From a virus, in the IMG/VR virus record IMGVR_UViG_3300027747_000997, positions 1-53,520 of that record: a stretch of DNA of 53,520 nucleotides. One strand, 5' to 3'. Shown here one piece after another: positions 24,598 to 46,288 of this stretch. Numbering within the stretch: the stretch's first letter is position 1; each line of letters opens with the position of its first letter. The position numbers and the translations under genes were made by a program. The notes beneath the pieces are model-generated. The model had not been told where the DNA came from, searched no databases, and saw only the letters and a program-made list of their open reading frames with translations.

Positions 24598-24852
24598 CTA
24601 CAATGGTGGTTGGTGTGCAGGTGGTTGTGTGAAATTAGAAGTTATTTGAGTATTGTTGTTTTCACTAGAACTTATATCATCCATCGTTGCAAAACCCATA
24701 TACGAACCAACCACAGCAGATACAAAGAGATAAAACGGCATTGCAATTGTACCAAGTGTGGGTGATTCAGATACTAAAATAAGTAACGGAAACACCAATC
24801 CAGCAAGCATTGATAGCCATGCCATTCTGCGCCTGTTTTTCCAACGATCCAT
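24598..24852 (-). CDS. Probable holin
   Basis: 84 residues with two hydrophobic segments (LSMLAGLVFPLLILV and FYLFVSAVVGSYMGF), a basic N-terminus (MDRWKNRRRMAW) and a hydrophilic tail. This two-span layout directly after the endolysin gene is typical of a phage holin; identity rests on context. Start overlaps the endolysin stop (TAATG). Confidence 0.6.
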   Translation of the reverse strand: MDRWKNRRRMAWLSMLAGLVFPLLILVSESPTLGTIAMPFYLFVSAVVGSYMGFATMDDISSSENNNTQITSNFTQPPAHQPPL

Positions 24853-25496
24853 TACACACCTAATATTCGTAATGCGTTTTCATAATATTTCTTTCTTTCT
24901 TCAAGACCATTATAACCACCATTGATGGCTCTTGTCAATCCTACTATATCACCGATATCAGCAAATCTATTTAGATTATTAATTTTCCAGAACCAGCAGG
25001 CAGATTGTACAGCTAAATTTGGTTGTGAAACCAACTCAGGTTTAAGTAACGCTTCGTTATCTTCAGACATGGAAAAGGATGCATAGTTATCTTTACCTGT
25101 TAACTGAATTAAACCACGACCACGATATTTGTAGCCATCACCAGAAGCTTCATCACCGTTACCTAAATCAGCACGGTTACCATATGCTCTGTTTGCAATA
25201 GCCTCTTGTTTGTTAGGCATTGCAACATAACGTGCAGCCACATCAGGAGGAAATCGAGTTGGCCATAGTCTTGTCAATGTTTCAGCACGATAATTCAAAT
25301 TCTCTTCTAGTACCGTAAACTGACCAGACTCATGTGAACATTGTGCAATAAAGGCAGCAATGCGTAATGGTGTGGTTATATCGTAATTTGGCAATACCGA
25401 CAACAGAGCTTCATGCCATTGAGCAACATAGTGGTTATTTGGAATCATTTGTTGCAATTGTTCCCGTGATAAATCCATGTTATTTAACCAGTTCAA
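24852..25496 (-). CDS. Endolysin, glycoside hydrolase 19 (chitinase-like) family
   Basis: 214 residues. The catalytic Glu lies in CSHESGQFTVLEENLNY and the conserved GRGLIQLTGKDNY block is present, as in GH19 lysozymes of phages. It would cut peptidoglycan. No signal peptide, so it depends on a holin. The gene overlaps the lipoprotein gene upstream by 17 bp. Confidence 0.9.
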   Translation of the reverse strand: MNWLNNMDLSREQLQQMIPNNHYVAQWHEALLSVLPNYDITTPLRIAAFIAQCSHESGQFTVLEENLNYRAETLTRLWPTRFPPDVAARYVAMPNKQEAIANRAYGNRADLGNGDEASGDGYKYRGRGLIQLTGKDNYASFSMSEDNEALLKPELVSQPNLAVQSACWFWKINNLNRFADIGDIVGLTRAINGGYNGLEERKKYYENALRILGV

Positions 25497-31130: not shown

Positions 31131-31436
31131 TTAACAATTCCATTTTCTTAGTGCTTTATTAATACGGCTATCAGGATCTCTGGCGGTTTCAGCAGATGTG
31201 AGTTTTGATTTCATGCCACCCATTCTGGCACAAAATGATTTGCGGCGATTTGCTGATTTAGAACCTGGTTTCAACTTAGAAGGTTTAGTAGTAACTGCCA
31301 TTGAAAGTTTTGAACCTGGATTATCACGGCGATATGATTCAATACCTTTACGATTCAAACCACCTGCCTCTGATTTACCTTCTTTGCGAGTCCATGCAGG
31401 AGAGGCCTCAGCAATAAAATCTCTTAGTCTTTTCAT
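31131..31436 (-). CDS. Small basic protein with capsid-targeting-like start
   Basis: 101 residues. MKRLRDFIAEAS matches T4 internal-protein starts (MKTYQEFIAEA) at the key FIAEA. The following AWTRKEGKSEAGGLNRKGIE, then RRDNPGSKLSMAV, is a block I recall from aquatic phages (DUF6321-type). The C-terminus is basic (RINKALRKWNC). Likely packaged in the head and possibly delivered with the DNA. Confidence 0.7.
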   Translation of the reverse strand: MKRLRDFIAEASPAWTRKEGKSEAGGLNRKGIESYRRDNPGSKLSMAVTTKPSKLKPGSKSANRRKSFCARMGGMKSKLTSAETARDPDSRINKALRKWNC

Positions 31437-33571
31437 GCTGCGTAATTCCTTTTACGGAAAGAAGTTAGGTTGATACCAACTTTCTTTAGTTCATCTTCTT
31501 TTTGGTCACCAATAGATGCCGTAGTTTCATCACCTTGTATTTCTTTAAATGGTTTCAGTTTGCCATTCTTGTCATAATTATCACCACCACCACGACCAAG
31601 ACTTTCTCCAGATTGTGCCATCGAAAGTCCTGGTTCAATACTCATATCTATAGCTTCGGTAATGGCTTTTTCTTTTTTGGCCCGGATTTGTGCGAGGGTG
31701 ATTTTGGTTTTGGACTTGGAGATTTCTTCGGTGATGGTTTCGCTTGAACCACTGGCTCTTCCACCGGTACTATTGGTATGACGTATACTGGCGCCGACAC
31801 TTCCAAAACGGTCGGTGATTGAACTTCTTTCTTCTTGAATAGACTCATTAGTTTCTTTAGCATTTGGATTTCCTTTGATTTTGATAACATAAACTTTACC
31901 CATTGGATAAACAACACCATCATGTGTATGGGCTTCTTTAGCAGCAGAACGGCGTAAAATGAATGTTCTTACTTTACCGGTTTTATCTTTCAATAGCTGA
32001 CTATAATTTGAGTTAGAATATTCATTTATTTCTTCAAATGATTCATTAAAGAAACTTTCAAATTCTTCGTTAACTTTCTTAGTCACAGGTGCTTGCACTG
32101 GTTGTAGTTTATCATGTACTGAACGGTGTGTAACTTTATTGTCTTTACCGTAGCGACCAAAACCATAATAGTCCAAACCTAGTTTACGAGCTTCTTCTGC
32201 GGCCTTTGAATCTGGATGTGGTGAGGTCTTTGCGTCTTTCTTTGATACGGTAAGACTGTCTTTCTTTTGCAATTCAGCAGAAACCCACTCTCTAGCCTGT
32301 TTGCTTTTTGGTGGTGTACTTACAAACTTTTGTATTTGTTTGTAAAGGTCCAGCATTTCTTTCTTTTTAGCCTTAACAATATCAGGGTGTGCTGAGCGCA
32401 AATCTTCTGAATTATCAAACTCAGTATAATTTTCACCAAATATTTTTGCTAAATCTGGTCTTGCATTTTGCACAGACTGCCATTTCTCTCTTCTAAGGTT
32501 CTCTGGTACTGTACGACCACCACGTTGTCCACGTTCAACATTACGCATGGATGATACATCATCTTTAGTATTAATTAAAACCATTGAAGTATCATAACCT
32601 AATTCTTCTAGGCGACCTTTGATTTTCTTAATTTTCTCTGGATCATCACCAGTACCATTGATGATAACACCATTACGACCATGCAAAGCAAGACGCTCTC
32701 TCAATTCGGTTATACTCTTTGCTCTACCACGAGTAATATCACGTTCAGTTTTTTCAGAATCAGGCATGGTTTTATTCAGACCCTGCTTGTCCATAAGATA
32801 TTCAAGTGCTTTATCTGAATTGATTTCTGTTAGACCATGACCTGAAAGTGTGTTATCAAGAATATAATCTTTACCTGAACCTGGACCACCCGCTAAGAAT
32901 ACAGCCTTAAAGATGGCCTTATCATGTACACCTTCAACCAACAATTCTTCAAATGATGCATCAACATCTTCTTTAACACCCATGTGGTGACGTACATCAT
33001 TGTACAATTCTTTTGCATGGTGTTCTGGTACATGACTAGGAACACCCTTCTTGAATTCATTGAAGTTACCACTAGAAGCGTGTGCTCGCATTTTCGAAGC
33101 AGACATACCTTCTGCACCTTCGGCATCAGGGTCTCTCTCACCTGCGGAGTGTACTTTTATGTGTTTAAAATTAAACAATGCACCTTCGTGGGTGCCATTG
33201 TATTTGTGTAACAACTTGTGATATTCTCCAGTGCGGTCTGAACCAGCAACCATGTGTAGGTGTGTCACACCTTGTTTGTGGAGTTTTGCAGCTTGTGTTA
33301 GGAAGTTTGGATGTTCTTTGTTCGATACTGTAATATTAGTTTTCGGAAAGAATCTTTTGGCGTGTTTGAATTTTGTTTCTGATGATAGAGGATTCTTCGT
33401 CTTATCCTGCGAATGCGATAAGACTACATGATGTGAAGCATTATGCTCTTTGGCAATTTCTTTTACTTTATCAACCAGTTTACCGTGACCGATTGTTGGA
33501 GGATTCATACGACCAAAGGCCAATACAGCGTGATTGTCCTTTGATTCTCTAATAAATTCTTTAAACTTCAT
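31433..33571 (-). CDS. Fused nucleotidyltransferase and P-loop kinase, virion-associated
   Basis: 712 residues. Residues 1-9 (MKFKEFIRE) resemble a capsid-targeting peptide. Residues 15-165 are a cytidylyltransferase-like domain: GRMNPPTIGHGK carries the HxGH-type motif (TIGHG, 26-30) and SASKMRAHA (157-165) is the second nucleotide-binding motif. A P-loop (GGPGSGK, 228-234) starts a kinase-like domain running to about 430. The rest is low-complexity with short modules (DYYGFGRYGK; EPGLSMAQSGESLGRGG). A late promoter lies 35 bp upstream. Substrate unknown. Confidence 0.78.
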   Translation of the reverse strand: MKFKEFIRESKDNHAVLAFGRMNPPTIGHGKLVDKVKEIAKEHNASHHVVLSHSQDKTKNPLSSETKFKHAKRFFPKTNITVSNKEHPNFLTQAAKLHKQGVTHLHMVAGSDRTGEYHKLLHKYNGTHEGALFNFKHIKVHSAGERDPDAEGAEGMSASKMRAHASSGNFNEFKKGVPSHVPEHHAKELYNDVRHHMGVKEDVDASFEELLVEGVHDKAIFKAVFLAGGPGSGKDYILDNTLSGHGLTEINSDKALEYLMDKQGLNKTMPDSEKTERDITRGRAKSITELRERLALHGRNGVIINGTGDDPEKIKKIKGRLEELGYDTSMVLINTKDDVSSMRNVERGQRGGRTVPENLRREKWQSVQNARPDLAKIFGENYTEFDNSEDLRSAHPDIVKAKKKEMLDLYKQIQKFVSTPPKSKQAREWVSAELQKKDSLTVSKKDAKTSPHPDSKAAEEARKLGLDYYGFGRYGKDNKVTHRSVHDKLQPVQAPVTKKVNEEFESFFNESFEEINEYSNSNYSQLLKDKTGKVRTFILRRSAAKEAHTHDGVVYPMGKVYVIKIKGNPNAKETNESIQEERSSITDRFGSVGASIRHTNSTGGRASGSSETITEEISKSKTKITLAQIRAKKEKAITEAIDMSIEPGLSMAQSGESLGRGGGDNYDKNGKLKPFKEIQGDETTASIGDQKEDELKKVGINLTSFRKRNYAA

Positions 33572-33618: not shown

Positions 33619-34398
33619 TTAAATTCTATAAACCTCAGCAGAAGTCTTAGAATTAGACCTTTTTTTAATCAAATCCAAAACAACCGGGTCATTCATTTGG
33701 TCACCATAAGGTGCAAAGAATGCTCTATCGTGCTGTTCTGAATTGACTCTAGGCTCACATAGGTAGTATATCGCCAGACTCTTACGATACACATTTTTTG
33801 GACAATCAATAGCCTCTGGCAATCCATGCCATGAGTTTTGTGTGGTATCAAACAACACAGCACGATTGAATTTATTATGGACTTTGGTTACACATTCTTT
33901 TGGCAAATTGGTATCAGGGTCATGTGACCAAAATTCAAGTCCACCACCCCATTCTTCTTTCCAATTCGGTGTCAAGTAAATAATAACATTGATTCTTCTT
34001 TCCATTCCTAATTTAGGATGTATAGAATAATCCTTGTGCATATTCAATTTACCACCACGTTGATGCATATGCCAACCACCACCATGCATACCATAATCAG
34101 CCACCAGATCATTAATACCCGTAAGTAACCTAATCTTGTGTACATATTCTGGTGTGTTCATTAAAGAAAATGCCTGATATGTGGTCTTTGGAAACAAATC
34201 CCAATTTGGTGTCAGTTTCTTATCTTCAATAGCATTCTTATACACAGACCAAATTTTTGGGTCATTGTAATCTGGAAATTCATCAGATAACTTTAGTGCT
34301 GTTTCTTCATCAAAGAAATTGTCAATTATCACATAATTAAATGGTTTAGCAGTTTTAAATTCATTGTGAAATTTTAAGTAATCAAAGTAATTAATCAT
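33619..34398 (-). CDS. 2OG-Fe(II) oxygenase
   Basis: 259 residues. MHKDYSIHP supplies His121 and Asp123 of the HxD motif, SWHGLPE the distal His191, and YRKSLAIYYL the 2OG-binding Arg205. The fold resembles prolyl-4-hydroxylase-type oxygenases. It is the last gene of the sugar cluster, so it may hydroxylate the sugar, but protein substrates are equally possible. Start overlaps the previous gene by 4 bp. Confidence 0.88.
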   Translation of the reverse strand: MINYFDYLKFHNEFKTAKPFNYVIIDNFFDEETALKLSDEFPDYNDPKIWSVYKNAIEDKKLTPNWDLFPKTTYQAFSLMNTPEYVHKIRLLTGINDLVADYGMHGGGWHMHQRGGKLNMHKDYSIHPKLGMERRINVIIYLTPNWKEEWGGGLEFWSHDPDTNLPKECVTKVHNKFNRAVLFDTTQNSWHGLPEAIDCPKNVYRKSLAIYYLCEPRVNSEQHDRAFFAPYGDQMNDPVVLDLIKKRSNSKTSAEVYRI

Positions 34399-35045
34399 AA
34401 AGGGTATTTTTTGACAGTTATATTTTTATGTAATATGTTATGTAAGGAGAATAACCTTTCTACCACAAATGGAAAGTTTGGCACAAAATGGCCATTATAT
34501 TCTTTACCTTTCACATATATGTATTCGTTCAGAACCGGATCTTCTGCACATATCTTTAAACATTTATCAATAAAATTCATATAATTTGTCCAAAATTTAG
34601 AATTACCTACAAAATAATTACAAGTTGCAAACTCTTCGGCTGTGTACCTGTATTCTCCTACTCTAGTTTCAATACCAAGTTTTGGAAATAATCTGTTACA
34701 GAAATCTATCATTCCAGGACACCACACATCTCCTTGTGTCCAAATATTTGCATATTGATGTGGTAACTCTGGAAATGGGTCAATGTGATATACATCAAAT
34801 CCAGGATTCTCTAGCATCCAATTCTTAAACACCTGTGCAGGTACTCTTGTTTTGTCAAACCATAACCAAGACATAAGACCCCAATAAGCATCAGAGTCTT
34901 TGTGTTTCTCCAATAGTTTTTGCCACATTGGATATTCTCTCAAATGTGGCTGTGCGTTGATTGTATTGTCGTATGTTATGAATGCAGGATCTAAATGTGG
35001 TATTTGTTCCTGTCTATAGTATGCCTGATATATCTCTAGTTTCAT
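34395..35045 (-). CDS. Glycosyltransferase-like protein
   Basis: 216 residues. MKLEIYQAYYRQEQIPHLDP, then DAYWGLMSWLWFDKTRVPAQ and FDVYHIDPFPELPHQYAN. I recall similar proteins in sugar clusters of phages and bacteria; the acidic, aromatic pattern fits a GT-A-like fold but no clear DxD is seen. Function by context. Confidence 0.6.
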   Translation of the reverse strand: MKLEIYQAYYRQEQIPHLDPAFITYDNTINAQPHLREYPMWQKLLEKHKDSDAYWGLMSWLWFDKTRVPAQVFKNWMLENPGFDVYHIDPFPELPHQYANIWTQGDVWCPGMIDFCNRLFPKLGIETRVGEYRYTAEEFATCNYFVGNSKFWTNYMNFIDKCLKICAEDPVLNEYIYVKGKEYNGHFVPNFPFVVERLFSLHNILHKNITVKKYPL

Positions 35046-35863
35046 TTTACCATATCTTCAACTATTTGTCTGATATCATACTTAGGAATGTAACCTAATG
35101 ACTTTAACTTATCGTTTTTCATCCACATTGACTTGACCTGCACCTTCTGATGGAACATAGGGATTTCGATTGGAACTAACTTCCCATCACCACCGATCAG
35201 GTCTTTTGCATACCCAATAATATCTTTGAAAAAGATTCTCTTGCCGTTGCCTATATTGTAGATAGTATCAGTCTCACCCATTTCAATTACCAAATTGATA
35301 GCAGCTGCAACATCTTCCACATGGATGTAATCACGATAAAGGTTACCGCCATCATATACATTCACATCACGACCAGCTTTCAATTCATTAATCATATGTT
35401 GTAGGGCATTCTTCTGTGGTGATGCCTTCTTGTCTCCTTGACCCGCTACATTAGCTAATCTAAGAATTCTATATTTAATATTGAATGTTTCACAATAAGA
35501 AATTAATAATTGTTCAGCACACCGTTTGGTGATAGAATAGAAACCTGTTGGGTTACAGTATGATGTTTCTTTTGCAGGCATCTCAGTATCACCATAGACA
35601 AACCATGAGCTGATGAAGTTGAAGATAATACCTGTATCTTTACATTGCTCAAGTACCCTTATCATAGTAGTTAGATTTGTATCAATATCAACATAAGGGT
35701 CAACCTTAACATTATAATTGGTTACAGTTGAAATGAAATACACAATTTCAGTTGCATCTAAGGACACTCTGTAATCGTTTCGGCCATTTACAATCATATC
35801 ATGTTTTGTTTTAACATACTCAGACCCAACAAACCCTTTACCACCAAATACTTGTATTGTCAT
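35042..35863 (-). CDS. NAD-dependent epimerase/dehydratase
   Basis: 273 residues, extended SDR family. The N-terminal GGKGFVGSE is a Rossmann loop, and the catalytic YxxxK appears as YSITK (about residues 129-133). NVYDGGNLYRDYIHVEDVAA is the common substrate-domain block. It probably epimerises or reduces an NDP-sugar. Confidence 0.85.
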   Translation of the reverse strand: MTIQVFGGKGFVGSEYVKTKHDMIVNGRNDYRVSLDATEIVYFISTVTNYNVKVDPYVDIDTNLTTMIRVLEQCKDTGIIFNFISSWFVYGDTEMPAKETSYCNPTGFYSITKRCAEQLLISYCETFNIKYRILRLANVAGQGDKKASPQKNALQHMINELKAGRDVNVYDGGNLYRDYIHVEDVAAAINLVIEMGETDTIYNIGNGKRIFFKDIIGYAKDLIGGDGKLVPIEIPMFHQKVQVKSMWMKNDKLKSLGYIPKYDIRQIVEDMVK

Positions 35864-36045
35864 AATGCAGCTTTTAATTTTTCAATTTCTGAACTTGACA
35901 TATAAATTTTATTAGTATAAGTTTGAACCTTATCGTCCTTTTTCACCTCACGGCGAAATACCAATTCATATGTATCTGGTATATTAGTTAATTTGTTTTT
36001 TTCCAAAATTAACTTATAATCATTTCTTTCTATAATTACGGACAT
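35860..36045 (-). CDS. 61-residue hypothetical protein
   Basis: ATG 36045 with GAGGT upstream, inside the sugar cluster and overlapping both neighbours. MSVIIERNDYKLILEKNKLT, then basic strands. No recognised domain. Confidence 0.6.
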   Translation of the reverse strand: MSVIIERNDYKLILEKNKLTNIPDTYELVFRREVKKDDKVQTYTNKIYMSSSEIEKLKAAL

Positions 36046-37316
36046 TTTTTTAATACCTCTTCGATATATTCAAAAACTTTATCATTCCAAAATGGTGGGC
36101 ATCCTAAGATAAACACATGAGACAATGCTTTGTTTGCTAGTGGATACTTATTGTAATCATCTAAATGTTTAAAACCTGGATGTAACAGAATATTACCAGC
36201 AAAATAATTGCGTGTTTGGATCTTATTAGCTTCTAAGTATGCAACTAATTTCTCTTTTTCTTGTTGTGTCTCACAAATGATTGGCACACCAAACCAAGAC
36301 GGATCAGATTGAGGTAAAGTATCTGCAATTCGAACATTCAAATATTTTTCTAACAATAGGGACAATCGAGCTTTATGTTCACGGCGTTTTGTATCAATAA
36401 AGTCCACTTTCTCCAACTGAGCAATACCAATTGCTCCTTGCATATCGAGTGGCTTTAGATTGTATCCTGCATGGGAGAAAATATACTTGTGGTCAATGAT
36501 ACCATCATATGTATCTAACCAACGGTCAAATCTATTACCACAAGTACCGCATGGCAATTGGTTATTTGAACCAACACAATAGCAATCTCTACCCCACCAG
36601 CTTAGTGAGCGCACAATGTCAATAAATTCTGGTGTATTGGATGAAACCATGCCACCCTCACCAGTTGAAATGTGGTGTGCAGGATAGAATGATGTTGACC
36701 AACAGAAGTACATATCGGTAAGAAGTTTACCATTCCATTTTGTACCCAATGAGTCACAGTTATCACCAACTAGAATCAAATTATGTCGTTCACATAATTC
36801 TCTAATAAAATCCATGTCAGGTGGATTAGCAAGAACAGGTGATACAACAATAGCCTTTGTTCTAGGTGTAATCTTTGCTTCAATTAGATTAACATCAAAG
36901 TTTAGTGTATCAAACTCAATATCAACGAATACAGGTTTAAGATTGTTCTGCATCAATGGTGCAATCGTTGTTGGGAAACCAACTGGTGATACAATCACCT
37001 CATCATTATCTTGCCATTTGAAATGCTTCTTCAATGCACCAATCATCACCAAGTTGGCTGAACTACCTGAGTTGACCATGTGTGATTGTTTTACATTATA
37101 TTTCTTTGAGAATCTAATTTGAAATTTCTCAACATTCTCGCCAGCAGAAATCCATTTGCCAGTTAGGAACGCCTTGAGAGATAACTCCATCTCCCTTTCG
37201 TCCCACAATTGACCTGAGTACATGACATAATCTTCACCGGGTTTGAAGTTGTCATAGTTCTGTAGGTACTTTGGTTTAGCCAGTTTTGCTAATTCTTTAA
37301 TTTTCTCGTCAATCAT
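36036..37316 (-). CDS. NDP-4-keto-6-deoxysugar 3-dehydrase (E1/RfbH type)
   Basis: 426 residues, DegT/aminotransferase fold. The PLP lysine is replaced by His in SFYPAHHISTGEGG (about residues 214-215), as in the PMP-dependent 3-dehydrase E1. The [2Fe-2S] cysteines are present: Cys187, then 57 residues to Cys245, one residue to Cys247, and Cys256/Cys259 eight and eleven residues on, close to the E1 pattern C-x57-C-x-C-x7-C. It would remove the C3 hydroxyl of an NDP-4-keto-6-deoxyhexose, leading to 3,6-dideoxy sugars. No E3 reductase is evident nearby. Confidence 0.85.
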   Translation of the reverse strand: MIDEKIKELAKLAKPKYLQNYDNFKPGEDYVMYSGQLWDEREMELSLKAFLTGKWISAGENVEKFQIRFSKKYNVKQSHMVNSGSSANLVMIGALKKHFKWQDNDEVIVSPVGFPTTIAPLMQNNLKPVFVDIEFDTLNFDVNLIEAKITPRTKAIVVSPVLANPPDMDFIRELCERHNLILVGDNCDSLGTKWNGKLLTDMYFCWSTSFYPAHHISTGEGGMVSSNTPEFIDIVRSLSWWGRDCYCVGSNNQLPCGTCGNRFDRWLDTYDGIIDHKYIFSHAGYNLKPLDMQGAIGIAQLEKVDFIDTKRREHKARLSLLLEKYLNVRIADTLPQSDPSWFGVPIICETQQEKEKLVAYLEANKIQTRNYFAGNILLHPGFKHLDDYNKYPLANKALSHVFILGCPPFWNDKVFEYIEEVLKKCP

Positions 37317-38029
37317 TAATATCTCTCAATTTGGCCATTGCCTGCCAAAACCCCCTCACAATATAAATTATCAAATTGTACCAAGTATTCTTTCTTAATG
37401 TTACCAAAATGTGCGTGTTCAGTATCCACACCAAACTTATTGATAGTATTATATATCTGTGGTAATGTGTGTAAGTAATCATCCATTAACGATACACAGA
37501 ACGAATACATTCTTGTAATCAATAAGTGGTCACAAGAAGATTCAATTTGTTTATTTGGTGGCAACCAAGACGGAATAGATTTTTTAAATACATACTTACC
37601 ATACAAGTCATCATATGCCTTTGGATCATATCCTTCAAGTATATTTGTTCTACCTGACAATTTGAATACTCTACGAACACCAGCCATCATTTGCTGTAAT
37701 TCAGGATGAAATTTCAAAGAATTTAAAGTTTTAAACAATAACACAATTTCGGCTTGGGATTTAAGACCTGCATTTGCAAGAGACATTGAATCTTCATTAC
37801 CAAAAAGATTGATAAATTTATCAGAATATTGGCAAACACTAGCCATTGTGGCTTCGTCAACCATTCTTGATGAGGCATCTACTAATAAAATTATAGCAGA
37901 AGGTACACGTTTGCGTAAAGATTTTAATCCTAAAATTGTTTGATTCAATCTTGCTTCATCATCAATAACACCAATGCTAGTTTTTAGGGCGGAGGTTACG
38001 ATGAACAAGTCTCTATTAGGTATAATCAT
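37316..38029 (-). CDS. Glycosyltransferase-like protein of the cluster
   Basis: 237 residues from ATG 38029, ATGA-overlapping the SDR gene; ATG 38038 is possible. MIIPNRDLFIVTSALKTSIG, then AIILLVDASSR and EIVLLFKTLNSLKF, a Rossmann-like alternation. No strong catalytic motif. Assigned by context. Confidence 0.5.
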   Translation of the reverse strand: MIIPNRDLFIVTSALKTSIGVIDDEARLNQTILGLKSLRKRVPSAIILLVDASSRMVDEATMASVCQYSDKFINLFGNEDSMSLANAGLKSQAEIVLLFKTLNSLKFHPELQQMMAGVRRVFKLSGRTNILEGYDPKAYDDLYGKYVFKKSIPSWLPPNKQIESSCDHLLITRMYSFCVSLMDDYLHTLPQIYNTINKFGVDTEHAHFGNIKKEYLVQFDNLYCEGVLAGNGQIERY

Positions 38030-38697
38030 TTGTGCCATTCCGTATCAGGAAACATCTTAATCGTTTTATATTCAATGTTGAATTTACTATTATACACGAA
38101 GTCAATCAATTTTACAAGTTCTATTGGTGAAATTGCCTTACTTACATCACCACATGGGTAAGGTATATCTCTATTCCATAATGGTGTATCAATACCGCCT
38201 GGATGAATACTTGTTACTTTGATTCCTCTTGGTCGCAATTCTTGGCCAAGAACACCAGCAAATCCTGTAAGTCCGTGCTTAGAAGAACAGTATGCTGATT
38301 GATTCTCCAGTTCTTCAAGACCTGCAACTGAATTAATAAAGAAGATACGACTGCCTTTTTTCATCTTCTGCAAAGCAAATTTAGTCACATACATAGCTCC
38401 TTTAAGATTGATATCAATCATATCATCAATTTCATCAATACTAGTTTGTGAAAATGGTTTCATCTTAAACACAGCTGCATTGTTAACTAGAATGTCAATA
38501 TTGCCAATCTGTTCAAAAACAACACTTAGTAAATATGGATTGGTGATATCAACCTCAAAGTGTTTATAGTTTTCAAATTGAAATATAGATTCACCACGAG
38601 CAAAACCAATTACAGTCCATCCCTTCTCAATGTAATCATGTGCGATTGCTGCACCAACACCACTGGTTGTACCAGTAATCAAAATAGTCTTATTCAT
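38026..38697 (-). CDS. Short-chain dehydrogenase/reductase
   Basis: 223 residues from ATG 38697; the upstream extension starts with TTG and is less likely. Glycine loop TGTTSGVGAA, NNAAV after the fourth strand, catalytic Ser in INSVAGL, and YxxxK as YCSSK. A classical SDR, likely acting on the ketone of the cyclitol or keto-sugar. Confidence 0.9.
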   Translation of the reverse strand: MNKTILITGTTSGVGAAIAHDYIEKGWTVIGFARGESIFQFENYKHFEVDITNPYLLSVVFEQIGNIDILVNNAAVFKMKPFSQTSIDEIDDMIDINLKGAMYVTKFALQKMKKGSRIFFINSVAGLEELENQSAYCSSKHGLTGFAGVLGQELRPRGIKVTSIHPGGIDTPLWNRDIPYPCGDVSKAISPIELVKLIDFVYNSKFNIEYKTIKMFPDTEWHK

Positions 38698-39832
38698 AGT
38701 TAACTTCTTCAAACAAATCTGAAGCTTTCTTTATCTCTTCATCGGTTACATCATTCAGTATCATATAGTTACCAATGCCAACAGGTACAGGTAAGTATTG
38801 ATTACCGTTTCGATGTTTCATTGTATCAGATAATGATTTTTTAAGCAAGTCAAAATTACAGAAATCTTTATGAAATACAGGCAATTTTAAACTGTGTGCT
38901 GTCTTAAAGATTCTTTCTAAGGTTTCAGTATCAATATAACCACGAACATTAGCAAGACAAGAACTCAACAGGCAATCTAGCACAACAGCCTCACCATGCT
39001 GTAATGTGTCCATATTCTGCATTTCAATAATAGGACTAAATGAATGACCAAAGTCAACGCATCGGTCTAGTTTTTTCTCCCATAGATTTGGTGCTAATTC
39101 TTCAATCATGCCTGTAATGGCAGAATTGATTACTCGAACTGGTACGGCACCAAACTGGAATTTCTCGGTGATTAATTGCTCTGCGCTTGTCTCTAGCAAC
39201 TCAAACAATTCTTTGTCTTTGATTACTGCAAGTTTAAATATCTCCGCAATACCATTAACAATGTTTCTCTCATCTTGTGTAGCAATAAACTTCTTATCCA
39301 ATAATGTTGCAATTGGTGGGTAATATGCACCTATACGATTTCTACGACCAAAGTGGTTAGCCGCAACTTTAACACCAACCGAAGCATCTACAATGGCCAA
39401 TAGTGTAGTTGGCACCTTAACATAAGGAATGCCTCTACGATAGATTGAGCAACAGAAACCAACCAAGTCTAACAGAACACCACCGCCAATAACGATGATG
39501 GCTTCTCTACGCAAAACACCAACTCTTTCAAAGAAACCTAAAATCTGGTCGGTATGATACCAATCTTTGTTTTCTTCTGTGGCATCAACCACAAACAATT
39601 CTAATTCTACCTGAAATGTTTTGAAGTATGTTTCTAATTGTTCGCCATATAGTTTATATACAGTTTCATCTATGACAACCACTCTGCGATTGGACTCACC
39701 AAAACTCAACAGGTCGTGATTGTTTACATTGAATACATCACTAGAGTACTTTAATGTAAACTCAATTGGTAGTTCGGCCTTGACAGACCATGTGCGTTTG
39801 TAATTATCAAATTTCGTTAATACATTTTCCAT
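38690..39832 (-). CDS. Sugar phosphate cyclase, 2-epi-5-epi-valiolone synthase-like
   Basis: 380 residues, in the dehydroquinate-synthase superfamily. GGGVLLDLVGFCCSIYRRGI, then VPTTLLAIVDASVGVK and RRNRIGAYYPP fit valiolone-synthase-type cyclases. The metal-site residues sit in GIAEIFKLA (Glu197), DFGHSFSP (His263) and LQHGEAV (His279). DFGHSFSP, rather than the LGHTFGH of AroB, argues against dehydroquinate synthase. It would cyclise sedoheptulose 7-phosphate to a C7-cyclitol. Kinase and transferase genes follow. Confidence 0.82.
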   Translation of the reverse strand: MENVLTKFDNYKRTWSVKAELPIEFTLKYSSDVFNVNNHDLLSFGESNRRVVVIDETVYKLYGEQLETYFKTFQVELELFVVDATEENKDWYHTDQILGFFERVGVLRREAIIVIGGGVLLDLVGFCCSIYRRGIPYVKVPTTLLAIVDASVGVKVAANHFGRRNRIGAYYPPIATLLDKKFIATQDERNIVNGIAEIFKLAVIKDKELFELLETSAEQLITEKFQFGAVPVRVINSAITGMIEELAPNLWEKKLDRCVDFGHSFSPIIEMQNMDTLQHGEAVVLDCLLSSCLANVRGYIDTETLERIFKTAHSLKLPVFHKDFCNFDLLKKSLSDTMKHRNGNQYLPVPVGIGNYMILNDVTDEEIKKASDLFEEVNYE

Positions 39833-40794
39833 TATTTAAAAACCTTACTCAATAAATGGCAAGCATGGACATAGAAGAACATTGCCTTCTCTGTTTCACC
39901 CGCTGCACATTTGAATGGCAACATACGAATGAATTGTGTTGCCTCTAATACATCAATTGTCTTTTTCTCCCATGGGTCAATTCTATCTTCAAATAGTTTA
40001 TTAAATACAATAAAATTATTTGGAATACTACCGTGATATCCCACCGATGGGCCAACAACTTTTACTCCTCGGTCAGTAATATAACCATAATGACTTCTTG
40101 AGCATTGTAACACCTGTGAATAATCTAAGAGGCGAGAATCAAGACAACTTTCTTCATAAGGATCAATAAACATCACTCTATCCTCTTTAAAGGAATACAT
40201 CATGTTTTCAAGAGTTGGATTACCATGGATAGTTTCTTCTGTTGTAAGATTTAGCTGACTAAAGAAGTTCTCCAGTTCTGGCATAAAGTTCTGAATGCCA
40301 TGTGTAATCTGGCCATTATATTCAAAAGAATCCAACAAACCAGATTCGTAGAAATCAGAAAACTTTTGGTACTTAAAGGCATCATATAGTTTCTGTAAAA
40401 CTTCTTCTTTGAAGTATAATGAACCTGCACCCTTAATTGGCAAATACATTTTACTATGTAGGCTATCAAATGAACACCATACAGATTCGTTTATTTTTTC
40501 TATAACATCATGTGTTATAGTATCTTCGGTCAAAATGGTTTTAATATCTCTATACCCTTCTAGGTATTCAATATCAAAATAAGCCGTTTCTTCTCTCATG
40601 CCAACACGCAAGACTTTAGGAAATAGTCCTGTTGCTTCAAATCTTTGTAGTTTCTTTAATTGAGAATACCAACGAACATAACCATATTCACGATTATCTT
40701 TTGTGCTAACAGATTTACGAATAAATTTATTAGCACCACCTTCATGTAAAGAGGTGTTACTCAAAGAGCCACCTTTCAATTTAGTAATCTTCAT
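39832..40794 (-). CDS. Sugar or cyclitol kinase, APH-like, with altered catalytic motif
   Basis: 320 residues, aminoglycoside-phosphotransferase/choline-kinase fold. The catalytic loop reads IHGNPTLENMM (His190, Asn192, Asn197), so the usual Asp of HxD is Asn; the metal-binding Asp is in FIDPYEES (Asp211). Either catalysis uses another acid or the protein has a different role. In the cluster it would phosphorylate the cyclitol. Confidence 0.72.
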   Translation of the reverse strand: MKITKLKGGSLSNTSLHEGGANKFIRKSVSTKDNREYGYVRWYSQLKKLQRFEATGLFPKVLRVGMREETAYFDIEYLEGYRDIKTILTEDTITHDVIEKINESVWCSFDSLHSKMYLPIKGAGSLYFKEEVLQKLYDAFKYQKFSDFYESGLLDSFEYNGQITHGIQNFMPELENFFSQLNLTTEETIHGNPTLENMMYSFKEDRVMFIDPYEESCLDSRLLDYSQVLQCSRSHYGYITDRGVKVVGPSVGYHGSIPNNFIVFNKLFEDRIDPWEKKTIDVLEATQFIRMLPFKCAAGETEKAMFFYVHACHLLSKVFK

Positions 40795-41513
40795 CTTGCC
40801 TTTAAACTCTGTTTAGTGACTTCAAGACCATATTCTTGTGGACTACCAAGGACAATTGTTTCATATTCATTATTCAGTTCATTTAGACCAATAGATTCAC
40901 CATTCCTAATCATGTGGCCTAGTACATTCGCAATATACAATTCTTTACCTGTGAATCCATTTAATACTAATTCGTAATTATCTTCATATATTTCTGCATT
41001 ACGAAAACCATATAGGCCTGAACTTGCAAAAGGAGAGATAGCGCACTTCTCAACAATCTCGGTTACAATTCCATCTTTTGACCTAACATACGAATACTTT
41101 GGGTTGGTAGCAACAAATACATCAACATAAGCATGAGCCATGTAGCTTTCAATTTCTTTAAAATTTCTACCCGTAAGAATTGTATCAGCATTATGAACAA
41201 AGAATGGTTGTTTTTTGTTTTTAATTAATGAAGCACCGATGTATGCGGTGTGAGCTTGTCCATTAGTATCGCCGATATAATGGATGTTATCTTCTGTTAG
41301 TCCAAGTGGTTTAATTGTTTCAACCAACTCTTTCTTAAAATACACATCACGTTTATTGGCCAATAAAATAACCTCATCAAACTTTCCTAATTCTTTAAGA
41401 ATGTTATGAATGATTGTTTCTTCACCCCAAGGTAACAGATATTTTGGAATATCAAAACCAACATCATGGAATCTGGTGTTTAAACCAGCCATACAAATTA
41501 CTAGCGCACCCAT
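40791..41513 (-). CDS. Sugar-phosphate nucleotidyltransferase
   Basis: 240 residues, ATG 41513 with GAGGA upstream. The nucleotide loop is an altered GxGxR (CMAGLNTRFHDVGFDIPKYL) and HNADTI is the metal-binding region. It would couple a sugar or cyclitol phosphate to NDP. It differs from typical RfbA/RfbF sequences, so the base cannot be told. Confidence 0.78.
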   Translation of the reverse strand: MGALVICMAGLNTRFHDVGFDIPKYLLPWGEETIIHNILKELGKFDEVILLANKRDVYFKKELVETIKPLGLTEDNIHYIGDTNGQAHTAYIGASLIKNKKQPFFVHNADTILTGRNFKEIESYMAHAYVDVFVATNPKYSYVRSKDGIVTEIVEKCAISPFASSGLYGFRNAEIYEDNYELVLNGFTGKELYIANVLGHMIRNGESIGLNELNNEYETIVLGSPQEYGLEVTKQSLKAR

Positions 41514-42208
41514 TTTTCAAAATCCTCACGAATTAAACTATGCCATGTTCCATTATTTTCACCAGGTGGAAATGGATGATTCATATTACAGTAAACCAAA
41601 TTCTCACCAACAAAACCTTTTTCTTTCCAATTGGCACTCATCATATCTTCACACATCATCTGTACACCACTTTCATAGAATCTATCCAAGTGTGTGAATG
41701 TGTCAGCATACTTATCCATATTTTCTGAAGATGAGAATGCGAACTGGTCATTACCAAAATCACGATTAGGAACTTGCCTGCAATTTGGAATATAAAGTTT
41801 AGTGCTATCTAGTTCTGCAAATGGAATTTTAACATTGATTGCAAAATCAAAACGAGAACGAATAACCCAATCAAATTTCATATCGTATAGGATTTCAAAT
41901 TCTGATTTTAGCCAATTGCATTTCTTAATGCTATACAATTGATTCCATGTTGCACGAGCTGGTTCTTTTACTTTCCAGTTTGGTTGTGGTGGTGGAACAT
42001 TGGTGTACTTTGATAAATCATTTGTTAGTGCTGGATCTACTTGCCACGATCTAGCTTCATATTGAATTATAGCCTCATGTGTCTGTTCACTTTCCCATGT
42101 GTGAATAAACACCTCAACATCATGGTCTTTTAATAGATTCTCATAAACAAACTCATAGCCTTGTTTAAAGCTACGAGGTTGTCCTGAAAGGCATAGTGCT
42201 ATCTTCAT
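41501..42208 (-). CDS. Glycosyltransferase-like protein
   Basis: 235 residues. MKIALCLSGQPRSFKQGYEF and DWVIRSRFDFAINVKIP (an acidic pair near the middle) fit a family of capsular/surface glycan transferases that start LCLSGQPR. Family is my recollection; acceptor unknown. Confidence 0.65.
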   Translation of the reverse strand: MKIALCLSGQPRSFKQGYEFVYENLLKDHDVEVFIHTWESEQTHEAIIQYEARSWQVDPALTNDLSKYTNVPPPQPNWKVKEPARATWNQLYSIKKCNWLKSEFEILYDMKFDWVIRSRFDFAINVKIPFAELDSTKLYIPNCRQVPNRDFGNDQFAFSSSENMDKYADTFTHLDRFYESGVQMMCEDMMSANWKEKGFVGENLVYCNMNHPFPPGENNGTWHSLIREDFEKWVR

Positions 42209-42885
42209 AAATCTTTTCCAATATTTTCCTTATTATCTGTAATACCAAACTCTTTATAGGCTTCTTTCTCAAAGACCACAATACTATTGTAAAAAGAAAC
42301 ACTATTCAAACCTTTATACCTTTCAAGGGTTTGTGGCAGAATATAGTTATTACCTTGAAAGTGTTGTTGATTCATAGAGTCGGTAACCTTCTTTGCGTGT
42401 TCAAGAAAAGTTTGTGGCTCTTTGTAACCACCACCCCAATTCTGCCAATAACTTGTATGAGTATCTTCAACAGCAAAGACACCATCATCATTCAAATGTG
42501 GGAACATACAGTTTAATGTGGTAATTTGTTGGTTCATTGTGTGACCACCATCATCAATAATGATATCAAAGGTACCATACTCTTCTGCAAATTGTTTCCA
42601 GAATTCTGGTGAAGATTGGTCACCCATAATGATCTGTACATCACCATCATACTTATAATTTAAGCATTCAGGATTAACATCAACAGCAATTACCGATGTG
42701 TCTTTACCAAAGTACTTCAACCACATTTCAATTGAACCACCACCTAAAACTCCAATCTCCAGAATTCTTGGTGATTTATCAACAAACTTGTTAAGGTGTT
42801 TTTCATACACATCAAAGTAACCAGACCACTTAGTCGAACCTTTCTCTAGGTTCCAAAAGATTTCTTTCAATTTCATCTGAGCCAT
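42205..42885 (-). CDS. SAM-dependent methyltransferase
   Basis: 226 residues from ATG 42885 with GGAG; ATG 42876 overlaps the previous stop and is possible. ILEIGVLGGGSIEMWLKYF is the SAM loop, DDGGHTMNQQ a conserved metal/acid block like macrolide sugar O-methyltransferases (MycE/TylE type). It may methylate the deoxysugar. Confidence 0.82.
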   Translation of the reverse strand: MAQMKLKEIFWNLEKGSTKWSGYFDVYEKHLNKFVDKSPRILEIGVLGGGSIEMWLKYFGKDTSVIAVDVNPECLNYKYDGDVQIIMGDQSSPEFWKQFAEEYGTFDIIIDDGGHTMNQQITTLNCMFPHLNDDGVFAVEDTHTSYWQNWGGGYKEPQTFLEHAKKVTDSMNQQHFQGNNYILPQTLERYKGLNSVSFYNSIVVFEKEAYKEFGITDNKENIGKDL

Positions 42886-43901
42886 TTATCATTCTCCAAA
42901 GACCATTGAACCATACCTTCAATTCTTTCACGCAATGAAATATTTGGCTTCCAACCTAAAGATTCCATATAAGAGCCAGACAAAGCGTAGCGTAAATCAT
43001 GGCCAGGTCTGGATGAATGAAAATCAACCATCTCATATTTTAACTCCTTACCTTGTGCTGCAGCAATTAACCTAGCTAATTCTAGGTTATCAATCTCATC
43101 GGGACCAACAATATTAAATTTAGGAATCTTAGCACCACCAAAATCAGGCACTCTTGCATAATCTTTTGGTAGATTAAGAATGAACATAAGACCGTCTGAA
43201 ACATCTTTAGCATGAACATAGTGGCGTGAACCAGCTTTTGTTTTAGTTGCATCAGAATGGATGGTTAGTGTAAGACCATCACGAGCATAACGAATGGCTT
43301 TAGGAATAAACTTCTCAGGATGCTGACGTTCACCAAATACATTCATCGTATGAGTAACAATAATTGGCATCTTGTAAGTGTTTTCAAATGCTACACACAT
43401 CTCCTCACCGGCTGCCTTTGATGCTGAGTATGGGTTAGTTGCGTTGTAACGATCACGTTCGGTGTAATCAACACCAGCTGGTGCAGGACCAAATACCTCA
43501 TCTGTACTAAAGTATACAAACTTCTCCAGATTAGGAAGTGTACGAGCAAACTGTAATAGGTTAACTGTACCAACTACGTTATCTTGTACAAACTCCATTG
43601 GGAATTCAATAGAACGGTCAACGTGTGAACCTGCTGCAAGATGTAGAACCAATTGACAATCACCAATCAAACCAGAAGTCTGTGGGTTAATCTCAGCTCT
43701 TAAATCGTGAAATACAATCTCAACACGCTTCTTGGTATCACGATCATATTTCTTCATAATATCTTCAAGGCGATTTAGATTGCCAGAGAAATCAAGTCGA
43801 TCAAGTGACACAATTGTCCAGTCAGTTTGGTCAAGGATTGTTTCAATCAAATGGTGTGCAATGAACCCTGCTCCACCGGTAATCAATACTCTTTTAGTCA
43901 T
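42873..43901 (-). CDS. NDP-hexose 4,6-dehydratase
   Basis: 342 residues, extended SDR. GGAGFIAHH (residues 9-17) is the NAD loop, FSTDEVFG the active-site acid region, and NPYSASKAAGEE the YxxxK region. Acts on an NDP-glucose to give the 4-keto-6-deoxy intermediate that the E1-type dehydrase downstream needs. The nucleotide base cannot be deduced. Confidence 0.85.
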   Translation of the reverse strand: MTKRVLITGGAGFIAHHLIETILDQTDWTIVSLDRLDFSGNLNRLEDIMKKYDRDTKKRVEIVFHDLRAEINPQTSGLIGDCQLVLHLAAGSHVDRSIEFPMEFVQDNVVGTVNLLQFARTLPNLEKFVYFSTDEVFGPAPAGVDYTERDRYNATNPYSASKAAGEEMCVAFENTYKMPIIVTHTMNVFGERQHPEKFIPKAIRYARDGLTLTIHSDATKTKAGSRHYVHAKDVSDGLMFILNLPKDYARVPDFGGAKIPKFNIVGPDEIDNLELARLIAAAQGKELKYEMVDFHSSRPGHDLRYALSGSYMESLGWKPNISLRERIEGMVQWSLENDKWLR

Positions 43902-44736
43902 TATATGTTTCCTCTATACGTTCTTTCCATCCTGGTATCCGATCATATTGGTGAGCAATTGTAAAGACATTTCCTTTAGAAGTTGCAACTTCGCCGTTAA
44001 TCATAACAGGTGAAGGTTCTAATAGGAATGGACCGAATTGTTCTTTTTTACTTGGGTCTACCGTTGTGCCAAGTTGTGCTGCCCATCCAGATTCGGATGC
44101 CATATATGCCGATGTTGTGATATATGGATGTTGTGCAACCATAAAATTGAATGTCGATTGGTCAACAATAGGAATCGGGCGATTGATTGACATAACAAAA
44201 ATGTTTGCAGCCAAATCTCTCATACAAGTGGATCTACCAGCAAGCACACCCACATTGAAGATTACATTCTCTTTGAAAATATCATGGAAGAATGGACCAA
44301 ATGTTTCAATTAGATTTTGGTTACCCCAAGGTTCGTCTTTATAGTGCATACTCTCACTGGCAAACATCAGGTTCTTATCACCTAACCTTTCCTCAAGGAA
44401 TGTAATTGGGTTCTTTTGAAAGACAACATCCTTCACATCGGTTGTAATAACATACCGATATTCATTATTTCTTAGGTGATTGTAAATGTGGATGAATCGT
44501 TCAACGTGAACAGGTAAACTAGACTGATAAACATATCGTCTGTTTTCTTCATCCTTTTTTCCTGGCAAGATGACTTCAAAGCCAGATTGAACCAGTTTTT
44601 CGATAGTATCAAAACTGATGTTGAAGGCCACCATTGCTTTGTGACCTTCATAACCACAACGGTTAATAGAATTAACCCAATACTTTAATTTATTCCAATC
44701 GTAATTGGTACAGCATCCTATAATTAAATCTTTCAT
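43894..44736 (-). CDS. Glycosyltransferase-like protein, first gene of the sugar cluster
   Basis: 280 residues. MKDLIIGCCTNYDWNKLKYW, VITTDVKDVVFQKNP (a DxxD near residue 97) and NVGVLAGRSTC resemble nucleotide-sugar transferases of the GT-A type. Upstream lies a hairpin and a 110-bp gap; no clear late promoter was seen. Confidence 0.68.
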   Translation of the reverse strand: MKDLIIGCCTNYDWNKLKYWVNSINRCGYEGHKAMVAFNISFDTIEKLVQSGFEVILPGKKDEENRRYVYQSSLPVHVERFIHIYNHLRNNEYRYVITTDVKDVVFQKNPITFLEERLGDKNLMFASESMHYKDEPWGNQNLIETFGPFFHDIFKENVIFNVGVLAGRSTCMRDLAANIFVMSINRPIPIVDQSTFNFMVAQHPYITTSAYMASESGWAAQLGTTVDPSKKEQFGPFLLEPSPVMINGEVATSKGNVFTIAHQYDRIPGWKERIEETYND

Positions 44737-44845: not shown

Positions 44846-46288
44846 TTATTTTGCGATTACATATCTACCAGAAGAAGGTGACATAGCAGATGCATACATA
44901 TAAATTTCCATTATAACATTATTTTTTTTAATTTGTAAATTTATATCTTTTTGTGTTACGTTTTCTTTAGTAATATCTTGCACTCTTCTACCTTCAGTAA
45001 AATAAGCCCTTATCAATCCTTCAAAACTGCCAACTATATGTGTAATACTTAATAATATTCTTTCATTTTGATAAGTTTCATATAGTGTTGGTTTTAAATT
45101 CATAATTGAGTTAATATTAGTCATACCAAGTTTTTTTTTATAATCAAATCTACCATTTGATTTTAGAATTTGTTCAATGTGTTCTTTTGTAGCTTCTATC
45201 TTTTTTATTTCAGCTTTTAATTGTAGGCCAGTTGTTTTTTTTCCTGTTTCTTTTTTTACCATATTTGAATACTTTGTATTCAAATTATCAATTCCAGTTT
45301 TATAATCAGTGACACCTTTGTTATAAGAAACAACTAATTTTTTAGCATAATTAGAATCAACCCGGGCCCAAAGGTCAGTAAATCCTGTTGCACTTGAACT
45401 ATTTGTTCCAGTTCCAAAACTAGTTAAAGAACCAAGCCTAGAATTTTTACCCTCAATCTCAACTTTTACTGATAAACTTACTCCTAAATTTTCACTATAA
45501 GGATCATGTCTTATTTTAATAAATGGTTTGGTTTTTGAACTACCAAAATATATTGCAATGTCTCTATCTGTTCCCTTATTTTCAGAAATATCTAGATATT
45601 TAACATTTTCTAATATTTTTTGATTTTCTTCTTCTGTAAAATTAATTCTGTAAATATCAACTTTATCTGGAGCTTTCTTTAAAGAAACTCCTAATAAATC
45701 TCCAGATTCTATTAAACCATTCATAAGTTGATTTAAATTTATAAAATTAAATCCTTGAGGTGGTTTACTAACATAGTCTTGAATTTTTTTCTCTGCATTT
45801 TTAGAAGCAAAATATATATCTGCTGGACTCCATTTATTTACATCTCCAAATAATTTGTCTTGTTTGTTTGCAATCTTAAACAGTTCTTCAATATCTTCCA
45901 TCACAGACCTACCACCTTTAGCTCCACGATAATATAAGAAATCTGTCCATCCTGGTCTTTGAATTTTCTTAAAATCTTCGTCTATTTCATCTATATCGTC
46001 AATGAGTTTTATAGCAACATTTATTGACGATTTATACCAATCAACATCTTTATTTAAAATCTTCTCTATTAATTCCAACCCAACGCCAGTAGTTTTTATT
46101 TTTGAAAATGAATCAGTTACTAATTTTTTATTGTTTGATTTAAATTCACCATATGTTGGATATCCAATTGGACGAGGTTGATAATTTAAAACTTTTTTAG
46201 CTTTTGCTGCTCCAAGAAAGTCAGCCATAGCACAAAATAGTGCTTGAGCACTTTCAAAAGCTTTTGTGTCGCTATCACTCTCTGCCAT
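44846..46288 (-). CDS. 480-residue protein of unknown function
   Basis: ATG 46288 with AGGAGT upstream and a TATAAATA late promoter 27 bp before it, so probably a late or virion gene. Lys/Asn/Ile-rich. Starts MAESDSDTKAFESAQALFCA and has RGAKGGRSVMEDIEELFKI and TEGRRVQDITKENVTQKDIN. No motif or fold is recognised. It lies between a DNA methylase and the sugar cluster. Confidence 0.7.
   Translation of the reverse strand: MAESDSDTKAFESAQALFCAMADFLGAAKAKKVLNYQPRPIGYPTYGEFKSNNKKLVTDSFSKIKTTGVGLELIEKILNKDVDWYKSSINVAIKLIDDIDEIDEDFKKIQRPGWTDFLYYRGAKGGRSVMEDIEELFKIANKQDKLFGDVNKWSPADIYFASKNAEKKIQDYVSKPPQGFNFINLNQLMNGLIESGDLLGVSLKKAPDKVDIYRINFTEEENQKILENVKYLDISENKGTDRDIAIYFGSSKTKPFIKIRHDPYSENLGVSLSVKVEIEGKNSRLGSLTSFGTGTNSSSATGFTDLWARVDSNYAKKLVVSYNKGVTDYKTGIDNLNTKYSNMVKKETGKKTTGLQLKAEIKKIEATKEHIEQILKSNGRFDYKKKLGMTNINSIMNLKPTLYETYQNERILLSITHIVGSFEGLIRAYFTEGRRVQDITKENVTQKDINLQIKKNNVIMEIYMYASAMSPSSGRYVIAK

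Follow-up and report, generated by a model that had tools for sequence, protein, structure and literature searches.

What would an uncultured bacterial virus make with a run of fourteen overlapping genes coding for sugar- and cyclitol-type enzymes? The question is raised by a minus-strand cluster at positions 33619-44736 of the IMG/VR virus record IMGVR_UViG_3300027747_000997, whose 53,520 bases constitute the window analyzed here. An initial annotation had proposed that the cluster builds an unusual sugar or C7-cyclitol and that it carries both a cyclitol and a deoxysugar branch. The answer that we judge probable is that a core of four genes makes a nucleoside diphosphate (NDP)-activated C7 carbasugar for glycans, most likely a host surface polysaccharide, and that in the clade of the window a separate dideoxyhexose add-on accompanies it. 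The core comprises the following genes:

40791..41513, minus strand: sugar/cyclitol-1-phosphate nucleotidyltransferase-type protein (PF00483, 38.6 bits; best match by profile in the Protein Data Bank (PDB) 4evw, 132 bits)
39832..40794, minus strand: kinase-like protein of predicted aminoglycoside-phosphotransferase (APH) fold, with HGN for HGD (AlphaFold2 model, mean predicted confidence (pLDDT) 92.9; Foldseek best match APH(2'')-Ia, E 1.6e-6)
38690..39832, minus strand: candidate sedoheptulose-7-phosphate-cyclase-type enzyme, resembling 2-epi-5-epi-valiolone synthase (EEVS), as judged by score to ValA (4p53, 306 bits), residues and tree
38026..38712, minus strand: classical short-chain dehydrogenase/reductase (SDR) oxidoreductase (PF00106, 143 bits)

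At a minimum length of 80 aa, 13 open reading frames (ORFs) were called in the cluster; a shorter one, of 61 aa (35860-36045), brings the total to fourteen. As the initial annotation had it, the fourteen form a gapless series: neighbors overlap at each of the 13 junctions, by 1-23 bases, and gaps appear only at the borders to the flanking genes (33571/33619 and 44736/44846). The 23-base overlap assumes a TTG start for the core SDR; with the ATG 15 bases further in, it shrinks to 8 bases.

The cyclase contains both domains of the dehydroquinate synthase (DHQS) family (PF01761 and PF24621 in Pfam). Its best solved relative is 4p53, followed by 5tpr at 225 bits, with AroB proteins reaching at most 132 bits; 5tpr, listed as a 3-dehydroquinate synthase, is presumably the desmethyl-4-deoxygadusol synthase (DDGS) of Anabaena. 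In NCBIfam the aroB model TIGR01357 is still the best, with no EEVS model among the hits, and it gives 216 bits against a cut-off of 305. The structure 4p53 is that of ValA, an EEVS, and the EEVS fingerprint comprises 14 sites (Kean et al. 2014, per PMC4426668).

We built a tree of 54 cyclase sequences, 18 of them phage proteins, rooted on 3okf and with ultrafast bootstrap (UFBoot) support. A clade in which the phage proteins join ValA, 5tpr and uncharacterised bacterial proteins is split from DHQS at a support of 100; within it the 18 phage cyclases are monophyletic (100), with a protein from a Balneolaceae metagenome-assembled genome (MAG) as their sister (98). Three ValA positions, Leu267, Asp281 and His360, were taken by us as EEVS-type residues, the numbering being fixed by matching to these same residues. 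The corresponding columns read L/D/H in 18 of 18 phage cyclases, E/A/T in 5tpr and V/N/V in the DHQS 3okf, and the Glu/His/His metal ligands, assigned by motif, are likewise present in all 18. Two cyclases (L003 and L007) read KHRNSNQ and not HRNGNQ, with the His retained. Thus, the sequence features assign the enzyme to the sedoheptulose-7-phosphate-cyclase type and suggest an EEVS-like protein, in agreement with the valiolone-synthase-like cyclase named originally. Score, residues and tree alike rule out an ordinary shikimate-pathway AroB, and the alignment to AroB named at the outset as a possible refutation did not turn out to be the best one. With ValA and the sugar phosphate cyclase superfamily the phage proteins have in common the two domains, the metal triad, the three residue types and the best solved match, whereas they differ in forming a clade of their own, at no more than 45% identity to the cellular relatives recovered in a genome scan, that is not nested beside ValA.

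The cyclase does not occur alone. Relatives were gathered from viral contigs (26 in one search, the best 80 of 96 in another) and neighbors were counted on 82 viral contigs after five duplicate loci had been dropped, the denominators being contigs with enough flanking sequence. The contigs are not independent lineages, as their 76 full-length cyclases collapse into 46, 34, 22 and 9 clusters at 98, 95, 90 and 80% identity. Immediately before the cyclase stands the kinase gene (73/73), and immediately after it the SDR (76/76). In 64 of the 72 informative cases the nucleotidyltransferase in turn immediately precedes the kinase, while the other eight all have a divergent nucleotidyltransferase (24-28%) further upstream. 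A 235-aa protein adjoins the adjacent nucleotidyltransferase (62/64) and a 240-aa protein follows the SDR (62/74). Since these loci had been picked by their cyclase, we also made the reciprocal search from the kinase, keeping the best 80 of 109 relatives: the cyclase is next to the kinase in all 79 with room for it, 16 of which lie outside the cyclase-found loci. The proposed tie of nucleotidyltransferase and kinase to the cyclase is supported, for the kinase from both sides. The YxxxK motif of the SDR is conserved in 77/77 (Y..SK in 71, YCATK in 6), and pairwise dN/dS values, computed for six genes in comparison with three relatives, are 0.03-0.17 and point to purifying selection.

The neighborhood also bears on a gadusol-type product, a reading that we consider very unlikely. 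It draws on the adjoining EEVS-type cyclase, SDR and, in many relatives, a methyltransferase, and fish produce gadusol from 2-epi-5-epi-valiolone with the MT-Ox protein (PMC4426668). The methyltransferase is, however, optional and mobile, being missing from some relatives and shifted in position in others, whereas the steady partners are the kinase and the nucleotidyltransferase, for which gadusol synthesis would have no use.

Pfam gave no match for the window kinase at E<=0.01; at E<=1, APH matched 8 of 20 members of the kinase alignment, weakly, and fructosamine kinase 10 of 20. The AlphaFold2 model (319 residues, lacking the start Met, built from these 20 sequences) nevertheless finds aminoglycoside phosphotransferases as its best PDB hits in Foldseek, APH(2'')-Ia giving a TM-score of 0.54, and we accordingly predict from this model that the protein has the APH fold. 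A second, metal-site motif, [IV]DxY[ED]E, is retained in 73/73 kinases. The closest cultured-phage relative, gp311 of Bacillus phage G (25.0%), retains HGD and IDPRGE. In that phage (L122:3972-10925) the gp311 kinase, the HAD protein gp310 and the nucleotidyltransferase gp309 are flanked by two genes annotated as alpha glucosyl transferase, and the gp309-gp311 stretch is possibly another phage sugar-activation cassette.

The comparison made at the outset was with acarbose and validamycin biosynthesis, and the roles do agree: cyclase, oxidoreductase, kinase, nucleotidyltransferase and transferase are shared with the activation routes of AcbM, AcbU and AcbR and of ValC and ValB. In the acarbose route AcbU is the kinase acting on the 1-OH of valienol, GDP-valienol is formed by AcbR, and the phosphatase AcbJ and the pseudoglycosyltransferase AcbS are also employed; AcbM and ValC are kinases of the ROK family (PMC9200736). 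No ROK match was found by Pfam among the 14 proteins of the cluster, nor, at E<=0.01, a phosphatase or a pseudoglycosyltransferase, four of the proteins being without any Pfam match and the one of 235 aa having only a sub-cut-off DUF. Given an APH fold with HGN, against the ROK kinases AcbM and ValC, the phage protein therefore either solves the step differently from them or is kinase-like with a reaction that has changed. AcbU, as the nearest 1-OH kinase role, and AcbR may be regarded as functional parallels of the phage kinase and nucleotidyltransferase, the comparison being one of activity alone. The parallel is partial: it stands for the roles and fails for the kinase family of AcbM and ValC, the catalytic site of the kinase, the phosphatase and the pseudoglycosyltransferase; an unrelated kinase family had been named as a point that would tell against it, and this is half true.

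On this basis the following route can be proposed. The cyclase would convert host sedoheptulose 7-phosphate to 2-epi-5-epi-valiolone or a close isomer, as its family and residues suggest. The SDR may then reduce the ketone of this product to a hydroxyl at the 'anomeric-like' carbon, and the APH-fold kinase, in spite of Asn in the place of its catalytic Asp, would phosphorylate this new hydroxyl. From the phosphorylated cyclitol the nucleotidyltransferase, judging by its family, would form the NDP-cyclitol. The neighboring glycosyltransferase-like proteins are then predicted to transfer the cyclitol to a glycan, most likely the surface polysaccharide of the host during infection, a possible purpose of such decoration being, for example, to block competing phages.

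The only bacterial parallel to the full set that was found bears on the last step. A scan of genomes for the cyclase by short DNA patterns, which is not exhaustive, gave 13 loci, eight of them at 42-45% identity. Only one of the 13, on the Balneolaceae MAG contig JAGYJQ010000017.1 (L028), also has the kinase, SDR, nucleotidyltransferase and 235-aa protein (27-45%). The same five genes stand together there and the kinase has the same HGN as in the phages, while the nucleotidyltransferase comes after the SDR and the set lies within a bacterial polysaccharide operon. Around it are RmlA-like, two WecB-like, CapD-type (PF02719, 341 bits), RmlD-like, ABC, formyltransferase, DegT and glycosyltransferase genes, the Rml and Wec names being our own reading of the sequences; this context is that of a surface-polysaccharide locus. 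In the other cellular cyclase loci (L029-L040 and two further genomes) no kinase or nucleotidyltransferase match was present in the flanks examined. A profile of the kinase, run against 395 sampled genomes of the phylum of the Balneolaceae MAG, found a full-length match in that MAG only, with weak, partial matches in eight others, and 289 genomes of one class gave just two weak partial matches.

The host-surface destination is favored because the L028 core sits in a polysaccharide locus and because the glycosyltransferases of the pelagimyophages, T4-like marine phages, are viewed as altering the O-chain of the host (PMC7029224). The same NDP-cyclitol might instead decorate the phage's own virion, for example the tail fibre or capsid. 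Glycosyltransferase-like genes encoded with the core would serve this purpose equally; as the sole cellular counterpart that we found sits in a surface-polysaccharide locus, we regard virion decoration as unlikely, while leaving it a real share of the probability.

Several observations weigh against a host-surface carbasugar made by this core. At the level of the kinase, the HGD motif, which we take to be the APH catalytic motif bearing the catalytic Asp, has Asn in place of this Asp in 73/73 proteins (HGNPTLEN in 72, LGNPTLEN in 1), so that the protein could be inactive or catalyse another reaction. At the level of the cyclase, the L/D/H residues are not exclusive to EEVS: one protein outside the EEVS and DDGS groups (L128) has L/D/H and another (L188) I/D/H. 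Within the tree DDGS proteins group with ValA and its relatives (67), and a Martelella protein and one other join the phage-Balneolaceae clade (75); because of this order, itself weak, the phage cyclases do not appear nested beside ValA. The cyclase evidence fits the product of an EEVS as well as that of a 2-epi-valiolone synthase (EVS). Furthermore, in two kinase-found loci, L262 and L263, the region upstream lacks both the nucleotidyltransferase and its replacement; a transaldolase-family gene, as a substrate helper, was not found in 10/10 records; and support for the host surface as destination comes from a single bacterial MAG locus and from general phage precedent. In L262, frames that we read as SDR-epimerase-like and FAD-oxidoreductase-like precede the kinase-cyclase-SDR core.

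Part of this evidence would equally fit a core that makes an activated compound from a different sugar phosphate, through a cyclase of new specificity. Both the kinase and the nucleotidyltransferase belong to generic families, the EboD clade offers an instance of sugar phosphate cyclase enzymes of unknown substrate (PMC5133447), and the position of the phage clade and the non-exclusive residues speak the same way. Yet ValA is the closest solved relative by a wide margin, and L/D/H with the metal ligands is kept in 18/18; we consequently see a new specificity as improbable, albeit not negligibly so, and the carbasugar as the better account of the core.

The genomic setting points to a T4-type phage. 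Near it are genes for a DnaB-type helicase, UvsX/RecA, a family-B DNA polymerase, a ribonucleotide reductase, ThyX and PhoH, and its immediate flanks are genes of 712 aa (31433-33571) and 480 aa (44846-46288). A 162-kb contig (L016) contains the same stretch at 100% protein identity, together with a T4-type gp23. The nearest cultured relatives are Synechococcus phages (54.6% for the window DNA polymerase, 63.8% for gp23 of the 162-kb contig); as a test of cyanophage identity, a psbA-family gene was searched for, with no match in any of 12 related records. Bacterial contamination was rejected because the cluster adjoins DNA polymerase B, UvsX and the DnaB-type helicase and recurs on 82 viral contigs.

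A phage of this type also invites the reading that the cluster modifies the phage's own DNA, producing glycosylated hypermodified bases. T4 phages glycosylate their DNA, and the Bacillus phage G relative of the kinase lies near a HAD protein, a nucleotidyltransferase and the two alpha glucosyl transferase genes. PF00303, a family that we take to include the dCMP/dUMP hydroxymethylases, is however matched neither in the window nor in nine related records. The three matches obtained, in a divergent viral clade (G693-G695), span the full model with scores of 350-363 bits and resemble thymidylate synthase. As the window moreover encodes ThyX, and no base-modifying enzyme is seen in the cluster by Pfam, we attach only a small probability to DNA modification.

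The glycan reading thus leaves the remaining genes of the cluster to be placed, which are as follows:

43894..44736, minus strand: glycosyltransferase-like protein, 280 aa, first gene of the cluster (PF03407, 20.3 bits, below the cut-off of 22; phrog_1579, glycosyltransferase, 2.5e-7)
42873..43901, minus strand: NDP-glucose 4,6-dehydratase-like protein, optional dideoxysugar module (TIGR01181, 235 bits, cut-off 365; best PDB matches 2hun and 6bi4)
42205..42885, minus strand: SAM methyltransferase-like protein, 226 aa, optional, in only some relatives (PF13578, 30.5 bits, above cut-off)
41501..42208, minus strand: 235-aa protein, possible transferase, usually beside the core (phrog_13607, of unknown function, 4.7e-27)
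37316..38038, minus strand: putative GT-A-fold glycosyltransferase-like protein, 240 aa (no Pfam hit; AlphaFold2 pLDDT 92.2; Foldseek match to glycogenin, E 1.8e-7)
36036..37316, minus strand: RfbH/E1-type NDP-4-keto-6-deoxyhexose 3-dehydrase, optional module (NF011936, 371 bits, cut-off 423; PDB 3bcx, 251 bits)
35860..36045, minus strand: 61-aa protein, function unknown (ORF; no Pfam match)
35042..35863, minus strand: extended SDR epimerase/ketoreductase, 273 aa, optional module (PF01370, 112 bits)
34395..35045, minus strand: 216-aa protein, optional module (no Pfam or PHROGs match)
33619..34398, minus strand: 2OG-Fe(II) oxygenase of the PF13640 type, optional module (63.9 bits)

Pfam, NCBIfam and PDB matches agree with the enzyme classes assigned earlier (2OG oxygenase, SDR-type enzymes, 3-dehydrase, cyclase, nucleotidyltransferase, methyltransferase and 4,6-dehydratase). 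Of the up to four glycosyltransferase-like proteins once counted, two find some backing: the 280-aa protein through its weak matches and the 240-aa protein, whose model (239 residues, again lacking the start Met) also matches the Kre2/Ktr4 mannosyltransferases, making a GT-A-fold glycosyltransferase-like protein the favored prediction. The 235-aa protein matches only families of unknown function and has no PDB match at E<=1, and the 216-aa protein lacks any match in the two collections searched.

The best PDB matches of the 4,6-dehydratase, 2hun and 6bi4, are dTDP-glucose 4,6-dehydratases. The assignment of an E1-type 3-dehydrase is borne out by the alignment of the RfbH-type protein to the E1 structure 3bcx: His stands for the pyridoxal phosphate (PLP) Lys (FYPAHH), as in 17/17 RfbH-type proteins, and the Cys set of the 2Fe-2S cluster is aligned, with a 4-residue insertion before the last Cys. 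These traits are shared with the E1/RfbH enzymes DdhC and AscC of 3,6-dideoxyhexose pathways, from which the phage system differs in falling below the NF011936 cut-off and in having no Fer2-domain reductase, the E3 partner, in 10/10 records. Because of this absence we infer that the reductant is supplied by the host, for which SpnQ provides a precedent. In the clade of the window, the 4,6-dehydratase, 3-dehydrase, epimerase and 2OG oxygenase would together yield a second building block of the 3,6-dideoxyhexose type.

This second set is far less widespread than the core. Among the 40 contigs that extend more than 4.5 kb past the SDR, RfbH, the epimerase, the 216-aa protein and the 2OG oxygenase occur together in 10; 28 are without any of the four and two have the oxygenase only. 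Of 63 contigs that reach more than 5 kb upstream of the cyclase, 14 have the 4,6-dehydratase (>60% identity), and RfbH is also present on 11 of these. The core being near-universal and the dideoxysugar module complete in only 10/40, the two branches are best described as a fixed core and an optional add-on: both enzyme sets are there, as first described, but they do not constitute one pathway.

Further genes of related interest lie outside the cluster. The flanking 712-aa protein (31433-33571) combines a cytidylyltransferase-like N-terminus, below cut-off, with a Zeta-toxin/AAA-like kinase domain. The window encodes another 2OG-Fe(II) oxygenase, distant from the cluster (13363-13980; PF13759, 73 bits), and a GH19 chitinase-type domain (24852-25496; PF00182), probably an endolysin. 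In a related virus (L053:3693-5626), GT8-like and sialyltransferase-family (PF00777) proteins are encoded upstream of the core.

The divergent viral clade carries an addition of another kind. In 9 of 10 loci (L090-L093, L095, L097-L101; L092 ends there) a RuBisCO-large-like protein is encoded directly upstream of the kinase, after the divergent nucleotidyltransferase; it is not found in L262 and L263. The representative is:

L090:7763-9037: RuBisCO-large-like protein, between the divergent nucleotidyltransferase and the kinase-cyclase-SDR core (also in L091, L093, L095 and L097-L101)

Against the form III model it reaches 206 bits, below the cut-off of 497, and it retains KPK and KxDE, while the column that we take to be that of the loop-6 Lys reads Tyr in the alignment. 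On account of this apparent Tyr we read it as a probable RuBisCO-like protein and not a carboxylase. Among the literature matches listed, none reports a phage RuBisCO-like protein by its title. Downstream of the core on the same large myovirus-type contig (L090:12367-15477) are two radical-SAM proteins (PF04055, one of them below cut-off).

How far is this cassette known from other phages? Glycosyltransferases and deoxysugar enzymes are common to the lipopolysaccharide (LPS)/O-chain gene sets of T4-like marine phages, both pelagimyophages and cyanophages (PMC7029224), and an RfbH-type gene is found at 54.3% identity in cultured Synechococcus phages, among them S-B05, S-H68 and RN05-S, and at 61.1% in an uncultured phage record. 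The cyclitol cassette, by contrast, was not found in the 50,697 phage records searched, nor was a cultured carrier. There the cyclase has relatives at 26.5-31.4% in 14 records, some of the 14 being bacterial whole-genome shotgun (WGS) records; four are annotated as 3-dehydroquinate synthase and ten are unannotated. The kinase has one only in Bacillus phage G, and the nucleotidyltransferase reaches at most 26.2%. Among the matches listed from an open-access library, none describes a phage-encoded sugar phosphate cyclase pathway by title or start of abstract, and one candidate, PMC12360287, deals with aminoglycosides. The enzyme superfamilies and the phage habit of carrying glycan genes are known; the combination and the kinase did not occur in the records searched.

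In its most extended form the proposal is that viruses turn sedoheptulose 7-phosphate, by way of an APH-fold kinase with HGN, into an NDP-activated C7 carbasugar for the surface glycans of the infected host, that the same chemistry operates in a Balneolaceae polysaccharide and that a second phage lineage has added a RuBisCO-like step; we put this forward tentatively, as something possible rather than expected in all its parts. C7 carbasugars such as valienol, validamine and the precursors of gadusol are natural products, and none is known to us as a constituent of phage-directed glycans or of the surface glycans of bacteria. If the proposal is true, a chemistry seen so far mainly in antibiotic-type natural products and UV sunscreens would be carried by uncultured bacterial viruses, and a four-gene cassette in a group of T4-type phages would represent a compact route to NDP-carbasugars. 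The fixed HGN motif of the kinase poses a directly testable question of enzymology, and the cassette would provide a sequence handle for carbasugar-containing polysaccharides in bacteria. For the phages themselves, a sugar that ordinary glycosidases should not cleave would be a new means of hiding receptors or blocking rival phages.

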